Shown: positions 48,233-54,293 of the stretch, in pieces
Layout of the letters: each line of letters begins with the position of its first letter
Position numbering within the stretch: position 1 is the first letter of the stretch
NCBI GenBank assembly: GCA_937944885.1
Contig: CALFBB010000007.1
Span: 1 to 64,000 of the forward strand
Source of the DNA: an uncultured cyanobacterium
GTDB lineage: Bacteria > Cyanobacteriota > Cyanobacteriia > Thermostichales > Thermostichaceae
Reading direction: 5' to 3'
Length of the DNA: 64,000 nt
Program-made: the position numbers and the translations under genes
The notes under the pieces: generated by a model
The model's input: only the letters and a program-made list of their open reading frames with translations
Told to the model about the DNA's origin: nothing
Databases searched by the model: none

Positions 48233-48454
48233 CTACTGACCTAGAGTTTGCAACCAGCCAATTAGAGAATTGCCCAGCAACGCTTCTGTCACGATTAAAG
48301 CCACAAACCCGATCATGGCCAACCGCCCGTTCAAGCGCTCTGCGTAGTCAGTAAAGCCTACACGAGGGGTGCTATCGACATACATTTCTGGCTCAATGGC
48401 GTAGTTGTTCAGACGGCCACCCTCTTCAACGACAACGGAGCGATATCTACTCAT
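48233..48454 (-). CDS. hli: High-light-inducible protein (one-helix Hlip)
   Basis: 73 residues with one chlorophyll-binding transmembrane helix. The motif FTDYAERLNGRLAMIGFVAL is the ExxNGRxAMxGF signature of light-harvesting-like proteins, with the E/N/R chlorophyll and carotenoid ligands. Hlips dissipate energy and carry chlorophyll during photosystem II assembly and repair. The ATG is preceded by AAGGAG at 6 bases. A strong-looking promoter overlapped by an HLR1-like element lies just upstream, consistent with RpaB control by light. Confidence 0.95.
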   Translation of the reverse strand: MSRYRSVVVEEGGRLNNYAIEPEMYVDSTPRVGFTDYAERLNGRLAMIGFVALIVTEALLGNSLIGWLQTLGQ

Positions 48455-50690: not shown

Positions 50691-51639
50691 CAGAGGCTGC
50701 CGTAGAGTCTTGTTTGGATTTGGACAGGGATCCGTGAATCCAATCCAGCAGGAGCGGGTTAACCAGTTCTGGAGCTTCATCTTGCGGGCAGTGACCGACT
50801 CCTGCCAAGGGAATAAATCCAACCACGCAGGGAAACTCGGCCAAAGCCCGGCCCAAGGCAATCGGTTCCCAGGGATCCGCTTCTCCCCACAGGATCAACA
50901 CTGGACAGGTAAGCTGGGGAAGGAGATCCTCCGCTAGGGGCCCTTGAGAGTAGCGCACAAAGGCCAGAAAGACCTCCGCCGCGCCCGGGTCGCGGGCAGG
51001 TTTGAGCAGGGTTTGTACCAATTCATCAGTAACTGCCTCTTTGCGCCCATAAGCCTGCAACAGGATGTTTTTGATGGCCCCTGCCTGGGCCACTTGTGCA
51101 AAGAAAAAGTGACCTAAAAGGGGCCACCCCAATAGAGTTTGGATCAAAGGAGTGGACCAGCGCCGCCACCAAGGGATCTGCTGCTGTTTGCGTTCATGGA
51201 GCAGCCGCAGCGAGGGATCCAACATCGCCACCCCCAAGACCGAAGTCGGGTCCATGACAGCAGCCTGTAAAGCAACAATACAGCCAATTGAGTTGCCCAC
51301 CAGATAAACCGGCTCCCCTATGACCTCCTTGACAAAATCCACCACCAAGGATCCCCAAGTTTCAAAAGTGTAGGGCAACGGCACCCCAGGCCGAGGCTTT
51401 GCCGATCCACCAAAGCCCAACAAATCGACAGCATAAGCGCGACAGTGTTGCCCCAGCACCGGCAAATTTTTGCGCCAATGGTCGCTACTGGCCCCAAATC
51501 CATGGATCAGCAGCACCGCCGGCCCTATAGAGCCTACCTGTTGGTAGCGAATGGATAGAGCTCGCCATTGCCAGTGATGCTCTACCTTTGCCGGCACAGA
51601 GGGTAGGGGCTGTTCTTCGCTGCACATTAGGGATCCCAA
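50680..51639 (-). CDS. Alpha/beta-fold hydrolase
   Basis: 319 residues; an internal ATG at 51627 is an alternative start. The oxyanion region is AVLLIHGFGASSDHWRKNLP. The nucleophile Ser is in LVGNSIGCIVALQAA (GNSIG elbow), the acid is near LILWGEADPWEP, and the His is in VGHCPQDEAPELV. The GNSIG/GFGGSAKPRP pattern is shared with cyanobacterial and chloroplast hydrolases near the pheophytinase group. The substrate is unknown. The cap is hydrophobic (TPLIQTLLGWPLLGHFFFAQ), suggesting a lipid-like substrate or membrane contact. Confidence 0.85.
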   Translation of the reverse strand: MGSLMCSEEQPLPSVPAKVEHHWQWRALSIRYQQVGSIGPAVLLIHGFGASSDHWRKNLPVLGQHCRAYAVDLLGFGGSAKPRPGVPLPYTFETWGSLVVDFVKEVIGEPVYLVGNSIGCIVALQAAVMDPTSVLGVAMLDPSLRLLHERKQQQIPWWRRWSTPLIQTLLGWPLLGHFFFAQVAQAGAIKNILLQAYGRKEAVTDELVQTLLKPARDPGAAEVFLAFVRYSQGPLAEDLLPQLTCPVLILWGEADPWEPIALGRALAEFPCVVGFIPLAGVGHCPQDEAPELVNPLLLDWIHGSLSKSKQDSTAASANG

Positions 51640-51964
51640 GTCAGTGATGCTGATCCTACTTTTACATAGCTTTACGTTTTCATCCCTATCCCAACACCGC
51701 AGGGATCCCTTTCAAAGCAATCACGTCGGCGCAAGGGATGGACTCCATAAACCTCTGGATTGGGGATATAGAGGCAGCAGCTCTTGCCACGGTTAAGCAG
51801 AGGAGAACAGGAGCCTTGGATACCCTCCATTGACTCATTCAGCAGAGCATAGCTACAAACCAGGGGATTGGGTTGTCAGCCTTGCTGCGGATGAATGCGA
51901 AGCTGCTCCCTAGGAGGGAGGAGAGCTGTTAAGACACTCACCCTGTTGAGAGAAGCCCTGTTCT
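51640..51964. other. Non-coding gap upstream of the small-peptide unit
   Basis: About 325 bases between the hydrolase start and the promoter at 51965. No protein-like frame, tRNA or repeat was recognised. Confidence 0.5.
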
Positions 51965-51993
51965 TTGACACGATTAACATAAACTAATAAACT
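51965..51993 (+). promoter_or_regulatory. Consensus sigma-70-type promoter
   Basis: TTGACA (51965-51970) and TAAACT (51988-51993) are separated by exactly 17 bases. Transcription would start near 52000, giving a leader of about 97 bases to the small ORF at 52097. The -35 is a perfect consensus. Confidence 0.6.
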
Positions 51994-52096
51994 ACAAGCA
52001 AGTCTTGTTAAGATAAGAGGTTAAGAAGGTTCCGACTCTGCTGGCAAGGCTCCCCCCATTCCTCATCTCTAAGCAATCTCACTTAAGGACTGACCT

Positions 52097-52168
52097 ATGG
52101 CGCTGGTTGCCCTGTTCATTTTCGTGATGTACCTGATTGTTTCCAGGCTGAATGCGCAAGCAGATTGA
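52097..52168 (+). CDS. Candidate 23-residue single-helix membrane peptide
   Basis: ATG at 52097, stop at 52166-52168. The peptide starts MALVALFIFVMYLIVSRL and ends NAQAD: a near-perfect transmembrane helix followed by a short polar tail. TAAGGA at 52084-52089 is a good Shine-Dalgarno 7 bases before the ATG. A consensus promoter lies upstream and a strong hairpin immediately follows the stop. The layout is like that of the tiny photosystem, cytochrome b6f and NDH subunits of cyanobacteria. It does not match the PetL, PetN, PetG, PetM, PsbT, PsbI, PsbX, PsbM or PsaM sequences I can recall. Function unknown. Confidence 0.6.
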   Translation: MALVALFIFVMYLIVSRLNAQAD

Positions 52169-52171
52169 TTT

Positions 52172-52197
52172 GGGATTTTGATAGGCTATCAAAACCC
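52172..52197 (+). terminator. Strong hairpin after the small ORF
   Basis: GGG (52172-52174) and TTTTGATAG (52176-52184) pair with CTATCAAAA (52186-52194) and CCC (52195-52197), with one bulged A and a tight loop. It starts 3 bases past the small ORF stop. There is no T tract after it, so it may be an RNA-stabilising or processing hairpin rather than a classical terminator. Confidence 0.5.
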
Positions 52198-52312
52198 GTT
52201 CCTGCGCTCTGCCCGTCGTGTCGGCAATGCGTAGCGACAGGCACTCTGGCTATAGTAGCTTTCCGAACATCTCAGTGTCGGTAGCATAATACGATACTGA
52301 CTTCTGTGGCGA

Positions 52313-52498
52313 GTGACAGTGCTTCTTGATAGACTACTTGACAGATTATTGGGTCTTTCTGGAGTCCGAATTCAAGAGTTTGTGGAGTTAGACCGCCAAG
52401 TTACCCTCAAACTAGATCAGGAAACTAGATCTGGCCTCTGGCAAGATGATTCATTCTTGTTTTCGCCAGAACGAGGGTTTGCGTCGAGACCAAGTTGA
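52313..52498 (+). pseudogene. N-terminal relic of an ISL3-like transposase
   Basis: A GTG-started 61-codon frame begins MTVLLDRLLDRLLGLSGVRI and continues QEFVELDRQVTLKLDQETR. This resembles the LL-LPGV-V-------V-L-L start of ISL3-family transposases. The zinc-finger and catalytic parts are missing. It is followed directly by a relic of a different IS family. Confidence 0.5.
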
Positions 52499-52503
52499 AG
52501 GAA

Positions 52504-52756
52504 TATTCAATTCAACAGTATTCCTTACTCCTCATAAGCCTGGAAGAGCCGAAGGGAGAAAGGATTGAATACCTGCTGCCATATCCACCAGGCTTTAATC
52601 CTATTGAGATGGTGTGGTCAGTCATGAAGGCTTTCGTTCATCTTTGTTGCTAACGAGGAATAGCAGCATTAGAGAAACTGGGAGAGATAGGCTTGTATTT
52701 GATTAAGGCTTCATCATTTAGTAACTGGTTTAGTAACCGGTTTGCAAAGTGTTGCT
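52504..52756 (+). pseudogene. C-terminal relic of an IS630-family transposase
   Basis: In one frame the DNA reads LEEPKGERIEYLLPYPPGFN then PIEMVWSVMKAF. This is the conserved IS630 DDE C-terminus (LPPYSP-FNPIE--WS--K, where E is the catalytic Glu). A stop at 52651-52653 interrupts it, and the frame then continues RGIAALEKLGEIGLYLIKAS SFSNWF to a second stop at 52754-52756. A 12-bp tandem duplication (TTTAGTAACTGG/TTTAGTAACCGG, 52717-52740) lies in the tail. The first two-thirds of the gene are missing. Confidence 0.8.
52717..52740. repeat. 12-bp tandem duplication in the IS630 relic
   Basis: TTTAGTAACTGG at 52717-52728 is followed by TTTAGTAACCGG at 52729-52740, with one mismatch. The length keeps frame. 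Confidence 0.9.
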
Positions 52757-54293
52757 AAGGAAAAGAGAAGGTAAATTGACCCGCCACTCCTGTCGAAGTC
52801 GCTGCCCCATTGAAAGTTTCAAGGGTTTGATTAGGGGTTGTACCCTTTCGTAGCGTTACCGTAAAGGGAATGGGCGCAGTTGACTGGGAGCACCGCTGAA
52901 ACAGTGCTACCTCAATGCGATACCGTCCTGCAGGAGGAGTAGAGGCCCAAAAGACATTCTCCACAGGATTCGGGGTTACTCCAGCACAATCAGCATTGGC
53001 GTCGACATCCAACTGCCCCCCAGAGGGAATACGCCGATTGTTAAAAGATACTGTCTGCTGACCGGGATCCGTAACGTAGAGATCCAAATCATCAATCGTA
53101 TTCCAGTTGAGAGTGATTTGAATAGGGCCAGTCCTTAGGGGGGGAGTTGTGGGTGTGGGTGTTGGCGTCGGCGTGGGTGTGGGTGTGGAGGTTAGTCCGG
53201 GTTCCGCAACTATCTGAGCAAAGTTTCCTTGGAAACTATTGTTCGCCCGATAACTGGCCACTACAGATGCCGGTGTACCCGCAGCCACCTGAATGGCTAC
53301 CCCTGTGCCACTACCCCTAGTGAGAAAAGTATTCTCTGTCAGGGTGCGGGCTTGAATCCCCTGCAAAATACGAATGCCGACACTCCCGGCAATTGCACCC
53401 ACCGTGATCCGATTCGACTGAATCGCCGGCACCGCACCTGCTCCATCCAGTTGAATGCCGGTGGTGCCGCTGCCACCTTGGCGAGCCGCAACCGCCAAAC
53501 TGGTCGTCGGTGGATCCCCCTCAATTTGGTTGTTGCGAAACACTCCGCCCGAGTTGTCACCGTAGCGAGCAGCTAAAGCCCCCAAAGCCTGCAACAGAAT
53601 GGCGCTGTTCTCAATCGTGGGATTGCTGCCCGGCACCGTGCCGATACCTACCCCACCGGTTTTACTCACGATCGTCGAGGTGCGGCTGATGCGACCATTT
53701 CCAGACACCTGCACACAGGGATCCAAAAATTGCTGGCACAAAATCTGCGCCAGTTGTCCTAGCACGCCTTCCAGCACAGCCGCATTGCCGTTGACCAAGA
53801 CATTGGAGCGAGGGTCATTGAGGGTGACTTTGCTGGGTTGAAAGGTGCCATTGTTCACCTGAACCCGTCCCCCTCCCAGGAGCACTTCAACCCCTTGCAG
53901 GCTGGTCTGGCTAGGGATGACCAAGTCGAAAGGGCCAGTCGCAATCTCGTAGGGTGCAGAGCTACGGATAGCAATGCGCCCCCCATTGGTGCCATCACCG
54001 CCATCCAGAGCCAGGTTACCCTGCAGGGTTTCACGCCCTGCCCTCAAAATCTCGATGATCACCTCTAGCCCGGCAGTCGCGTTTTGTAGGCGTTGGGCCT
54101 CGGCAGTGGCATCAGCCAGCTTGGTCAAGGGGCCATTCACAGGATCCACCCGCAGGGTGACCGATCCAGAAGATGGAGGAAGAGAGGGCGAGCCACCGGT
54201 GCCGCCGCCTCCGCAGCCGAAGACAAACCCTGCCACTAAAGGCAGCAGTAAAGAGTGACTCCGTCTGCGCAAACTTGCCCTTACCTGGTTCAT
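52755..54293 (-). CDS. Secreted beta-helix lipoprotein with Thr-Pro linker and C-terminal YfaP-like domain
   Basis: 512 residues. The N-terminus SLLLPLVAGFVFGCGGGGTG is a lipoprotein signal with lipobox FGC. Residues about 50-370 look like a right-handed parallel beta-helix (short Asn/Gly-rich repeats such as NNGTFQPSKVTLNDPRSNVL, NQIEGDPP, GIQLDGAGAVPAIQSNRITV), a pectate-lyase-like/DUF1565 fold. A linker of seven Thr-Pro pairs (STPTPTPTP...) follows. The C-terminal ~120 residues contain LNWNTIDDLDLYVTDPGQQT and ENVFWASTPPAGRYRIEVAL, the pattern of DUF2135/YfaP-like domains. It is probably anchored outside the cytoplasm and binds polysaccharide or surface material. Its stop codon lies against the end of the IS630 relic. 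Confidence 0.8.
   Translation of the reverse strand: MNQVRASLRRRSHSLLLPLVAGFVFGCGGGGTGGSPSLPPSSGSVTLRVDPVNGPLTKLADATAEAQRLQNATAGLEVIIEILRAGRETLQGNLALDGGDGTNGGRIAIRSSAPYEIATGPFDLVIPSQTSLQGVEVLLGGGRVQVNNGTFQPSKVTLNDPRSNVLVNGNAAVLEGVLGQLAQILCQQFLDPCVQVSGNGRISRTSTIVSKTGGVGIGTVPGSNPTIENSAILLQALGALAARYGDNSGGVFRNNQIEGDPPTTSLAVAARQGGSGTTGIQLDGAGAVPAIQSNRITVGAIAGSVGIRILQGIQARTLTENTFLTRGSGTGVAIQVAAGTPASVVASYRANNSFQGNFAQIVAEPGLTSTPTPTPTPTPTPTTPPLRTGPIQITLNWNTIDDLDLYVTDPGQQTVSFNNRRIPSGGQLDVDANADCAGVTPNPVENVFWASTPPAGRYRIEVALFQRCSQSTAPIPFTVTLRKGTTPNQTLETFNGAATSTGVAGQFTFSFP

Follow-up and report, generated by a model that had tools for sequence, protein, structure and literature searches.

Several described single-helix membrane proteins invite comparison with the gene examined here, an open reading frame (ORF) at positions 52097-52168 of a 64,000-nucleotide stretch (hereafter the window; positions 1 to 64,000 of the forward strand of contig CALFBB010000007.1, GenBank assembly GCA_937944885.1) from an uncultured thermophilic cyanobacterium of the Thermostichaceae, which encodes the 23-residue hydrophobic peptide MALVALFIFVMYLIVSRLNAQAD. 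The photosynthetic subunits PetL, PetN, PsaM, PsbT and Psb30/Ycf12 (29-35 residues) are like it in having a short gene, one helix followed by a short polar tail and purifying selection, whereas the window peptide has no sequence similarity to them, is restricted to one genus and is missing from two congeners. PetL, the most variable subunit of cytochrome b6f, can be dispensed with in some cyanobacteria. KdpF, a small membrane protein whose partner is KdpA, occurs together with kdpABC. Both KdpF and the E. coli-type, 27-residue YohP, the model small membrane protein of one study (PMC7549839), match the window peptide in size class and in having one helix, with no recognisable sequence relationship to it. 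HliR1 of Synechocystis has a single predicted helix and lacked homologues beyond its genus in the study cited here (PMC5126843); the window peptide likewise has a single predicted helix and is lineage-restricted, the difference being that HliR1 lies upstream of sodB and the window gene has no constant neighbour. We found no paper on the MALVALFIFVMYLIVSRLNAQAD peptide itself.

A small membrane protein gene under purifying selection

A DNA-level search of relatives recovered the ORF region in G001, G002 and G005, all three of them genomes of the window's own genus, with an alignment that ends with the ORF. These three of the five other genus genomes encode 24-residue in-frame orthologues, MALVALFLFVVYLIVSSLNAQAER in G001 and MTLVALFIFVMYLIVSNLNAQAER in both G002 and G005, with the consensus MxLVALFxFVxYLIVSxLNAQAER; counting the window's own, four of six genus genomes carry the gene, each in one copy (E 1e-16 to 1e-18). 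The window copy is one residue shorter, CGA in G002 and G005 corresponding to TGA in the window. The coding features are as follows.

52097 to 52168, plus strand: peptide ORF of 23 codons plus TGA (52166-52168), identified by its orthologues and substitution pattern
52083 to 52096, plus strand: ribosome-binding region TTAAGGACTGACCT, with the core AAGGA 7 nucleotides before the ATG

In the window, TAAGGA at 52084-52089 is followed by a gap of 7 nucleotides and the ATG at 52097. The orthologues keep the ATG, the frame and the AAGGA-N7-ATG arrangement; AAGGANNNACCTATG, within the ribosome-binding region, is the same in all four species, and the Shine-Dalgarno and ATG context is invariant. Eighteen of the 23 residues do not vary (LVALF, F9, V10, Y12, L13-S16 and L18-A22). 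Pairwise ratios of non-synonymous to synonymous substitution rates (dN/dS) are ~0.07-0.14 for the pairs that differ in sequence, with synonymous against non-synonymous counts of 10 to 4 (window and G001), 9 to 4 (window and G002) and 4 to 0 (G002 and G005). For each of three pairs tested, random placement of the same changes gave equally few amino-acid changes without a stop in ~0.1-0.2% of trials. DNA identity to the orthologues is 80-84% in the ORF and 83-92% in the 12 bases before it, and falls to 34-46% in the bases after it, such that homology between species stops at the stop codon. Because the changes are mainly synonymous and identity is high in the ORF and low in the flank beyond the stop, comparison of these sequences indicates that 52097-52168 is almost certainly a real protein-coding gene.

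The peptide comprises one hydrophobic helix (approximately residues 2-18) and then the invariant LNAQA tail, a degree of conservation that hydrophobicity alone would not demand. The best 16-residue segment has a mean Kyte-Doolittle value of 2.6-2.8 across all orthologues, and a single membrane-spanning segment is predicted in MALVALFIFVMYLIVSRLNAQAD and its orthologues alike. An earlier note on this stretch had proposed an unrecognised 23-residue membrane peptide and named conservation and the synonymous/non-synonymous pattern in relatives as the means of checking it. The peptide proves genuine on both counts, with ATG, frame and hydrophobicity kept in three of five congeners and changes that are mainly synonymous; its lack of resemblance to known peptides is borne out by Pfam and PDB, which gave no match, and by NCBIfam, which gave none of significance (PtrA at E 0.08, under the cut-off). 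PHROG 27908, a family of unknown function, was discarded as a candidate (E 0.01, not significant).

The combination of features is also rare. A filter requiring an ATG, 20-40 residues, a Shine-Dalgarno-like motif and a 16-residue segment of strong hydrophobicity yielded 0.017 matches per 64 kb when applied to second-order Markov sequences built from the window. Run on 2.4 Mb of G001, a relative, it selected 11 ORFs. Five of the 11 resemble Psb30/Ycf12, PsbT, PetM (weakly, E 0.03), PsaM and PsaJ, and one more is the window peptide's orthologue. A chance ORF could be imagined, as the frame is short and matches no database entry, but the conservation, the dN/dS values and the rarity of the combination reduce that explanation to a negligible one. 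The genes petG, petN, psbI, psbJ, psbL and psbX were not found in the 2.53 of 2.93 Mb of G001 that were covered (2.4-2.8 Mb lies outside the coverage). G001 also holds another unrecognised hydrophobic ORF preceded by a Shine-Dalgarno motif, of 36 residues (MDVIPDEPLVIAGLLGLALLGILILNLAERDSGDAD; contig 1 at 1205949, minus strand, locus L168), which lies outside long open frames.

Distribution and genomic context

Two partly overlapping sets were searched, the first of 39 genomes from relatives and the second of 390 from the class. Strong matches are limited to the four genus members; the gene was not detected in the congeners G003 and G004, one of which is a single-contig genome of 3.0 Mb, or in ~385 other genomes of the class, where the best match outside the genus (E 0.002 per genome) is at chance level for that number of genomes. 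The weak matches sampled outside the genus look like chance frames, many of them within or antisense to longer open frames. Scans of wider collections of genome contigs and viral contigs confirmed nothing, near relatives possibly being left out and the confirmation step being insensitive for 24 residues; for both reasons, absence outside the genus rests on the 39-genome and class-wide searches. In the two proteins compared, G003 and G004 are nearest to each other (93% identity), with trees that disagree on branching, and a single loss could account for the absence in both.

The neighbours change from genome to genome (names outside the window were read from translations). The gene lies near an alpha/beta hydrolase and an IS630-type transposase remnant in the window, near a cdsA-like gene and an MFS-type transporter in G002, near a cdsA-like remnant and a hydrolase-like gene in G005, and near radA and a Uma2-type gene in G001. 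G004 has no peptide ORF between radA and the Uma2-like start that comes after it. Among the genomes searched, the gene is thus stand-alone, single-copy and genus-restricted, and its context is variable.

Some observations concern these surroundings in their own right. The IS630-type remnant occupies 52300-52750 (plus strand) of the window as a degraded transposase with broken frames; its fragment at 52495-52650 matches DDE_3 (E 6e-4, under the cut-off), and at the DNA level the genome holds no second copy. The cdsA-like gene of G002 is a second one (~41% identical to the other copy; L004 and L044) and is divergent from the peptide gene, and G005 keeps the 3' part only (L045). The same region of G002 also holds nif-type genes, identified by eye from translations. 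At 2473-2994 of L003, G005 carries a long tandem array of a short unit that reads as repeated VASAVRST in one frame and is interrupted by a run of N. Elsewhere in the window, 48233-48454 (minus strand) encodes a 73-residue Hlip-like protein that carries a motif for chlorophyll a-b binding (PF00504, E 2.6e-5).

Expression signals around the ORF

The following features flank the gene.

51965 to 51993, plus strand: promoter match TTGACA-N17-TAAACT (TTGACA 51965-51970, TAAACT 51988-51993), conserved in neither position nor sequence
52009 to 52014, plus strand: probable -10 box TAAGAT, reading TAAAAT or TAGAAT in relatives, at the same alignment position in all four species
52015 to 52084, plus strand: leader, partly conserved in G005 and G002 and less so in G001
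52172 to 52197, plus strand: hairpin GGGATTTTGATAG/GCTATCAAAACCC, beginning 3 nucleotides after the stop (-10.3 kcal/mol, z -2.0)

The earlier note had described a complete transcription unit, and every part it named lies where it was described; the promoter and the terminator among them are not conserved. The TTGACA-N17-TAAACT match is at chance level (one site fitting a loose promoter consensus in 1.2 kb, against 1.1 expected from shuffles), and in G005 and G002 the region has an 8-nucleotide gap in the spacer and both hexamers are degraded; it is probably not the working promoter. The box at 52009-52014 is more likely than TAAACT to be the -10 element, as judged by alignment, and would place the transcription start near 52020 and shorten the leader from the ~97 bases first proposed to ~75 nucleotides; no good -35 element was seen with it in the four species. 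The hairpin is likewise a poor candidate for the terminator it was taken to be: it has no T-run, is specific to the window and absent from the relatives, and terminator-like sites number zero in the region around the ORF. The stretches 3' of the orthologues fold no more strongly than shuffles.

The partial conservation of the leader in three species could instead point to a short regulatory RNA, or to a leader peptide for a downstream gene in which the ORF matters for attenuation only. This explanation we hold to be very unlikely: the best-conserved stretch is the ORF, conserved through its protein sequence, and not the leader; Rfam gave no match in the window, and no stable fold was found (for 51965-52215, z is +1.6 against shuffles). 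The leader peptide or attenuator was rejected because the gene after the peptide differs in every lineage, leaving no common downstream target.

Proposed function and alternative identities

We propose that the gene product is a single-pass membrane protein, specific to this lineage and dispensable, whose probable role is to bind and tune a larger membrane complex. To this statement as a whole we give a probability of roughly 0.6; the partner-binding mechanism taken by itself is, in our judgement, probable to the same degree. Transcription would start shortly after the -10-like box (52009-52014), and the short leader with its AAGGA would direct translation of the peptide, which would insert into the membrane as one helix; its invariant residues would then bind a larger membrane protein or complex and modulate its stability or activity. 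The conserved helix, the invariant polar LNAQA tail, the single copy, the promoter-like box of its own and the patchy presence all fit an accessory protein of this kind. We regard the peptide as accessory and not essential for photoautotrophy because two congeners do not have the gene. Several points weigh against the proposal: there are four sequences in all, two of them (G002 and G005) identical in protein; the helix, with ~16 hydrophobic residues, is short for a membrane span; and no partner gene is linked, the neighbours varying by lineage. A5, F9, Y12, S16 and N19, all invariant, would fall on one face of the helix, an arrangement that is not significant with four variable positions among the first 22 residues (chance ~0.3 by our estimate).

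A subunit of a photosynthetic complex, one of the roles suggested in the earlier note, finds no link to any complex here, and an obligatory one is unlikely because the gene is absent from two congeners, one of them assembled in a single contig. The peptide could also be a small regulatory membrane peptide, the alternative that the note named. The peptide might nonetheless be a known single-helix photosynthetic subunit that has diverged strongly, PetL of cytochrome b6f being the likeliest. PetL was recognisable in none of the six genus genomes (G000-G005), so that its slot appears empty by sequence, as judged with a profile, built from three PetL sequences of cyanobacteria in the PDB, whose sensitivity in this lineage is uncalibrated. 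The Pfam model of PetL likewise recognised none in the six, but as it reaches its cut-off in not one of 14 control genomes, among them S. elongatus, it is uninformative. The rarity filter that selects the window-type ORF in G001 also selects known subunits of this kind there. Yet profile similarity to PetL is absent (hhalign probability 0.6% over one aligned column, and no Pfam match), the peptide has 23-24 residues against 31-32 for PetL and has neither its conserved glycines nor its C-terminal K, and the gene was not detected in G003 and G004, both expected to have b6f (b6f itself was not searched for), all of which makes this identity unlikely. A type I toxin-like or membrane-disturbing peptide under the control of an antisense RNA, in the manner of Ibs, TisB and ShoB, is nearly as improbable, if slightly less so. 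Size and hydrophobicity, which the peptide shares with Ibs and TisB, agree with such a role, as do the solitary gene, the variable context and the patchy presence; it differs from those toxins in its one copy per genome and its invariant polar tail, its leader is without structure, and a simple consensus scan showed no promoter-like site on the minus strand in 51600-52800. The absence of KdpA from all six genus genomes, in a search that did detect its positive controls, excludes KdpF.

The accessory membrane protein that we propose is, by the comparisons made here, a new orphan. More speculatively, and with odds well below even, it may be a novel subunit or modulator of a thylakoid complex in one thermophilic cyanobacterial lineage. 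No conserved cyanobacterial protein annotated so far would be as short, and the position it fills might be that of PetL in a b6f complex without a recognisable PetL. What was a guess from raw sequence can now be tested as a gene: its product of 23-24 residues is unannotated, is under measurable selection and is smaller than what gene callers and standard proteomics generally pick up. The comparison also exposes a gap that can be checked: a genus of cyanobacteria in which no recognisable PetL was found.
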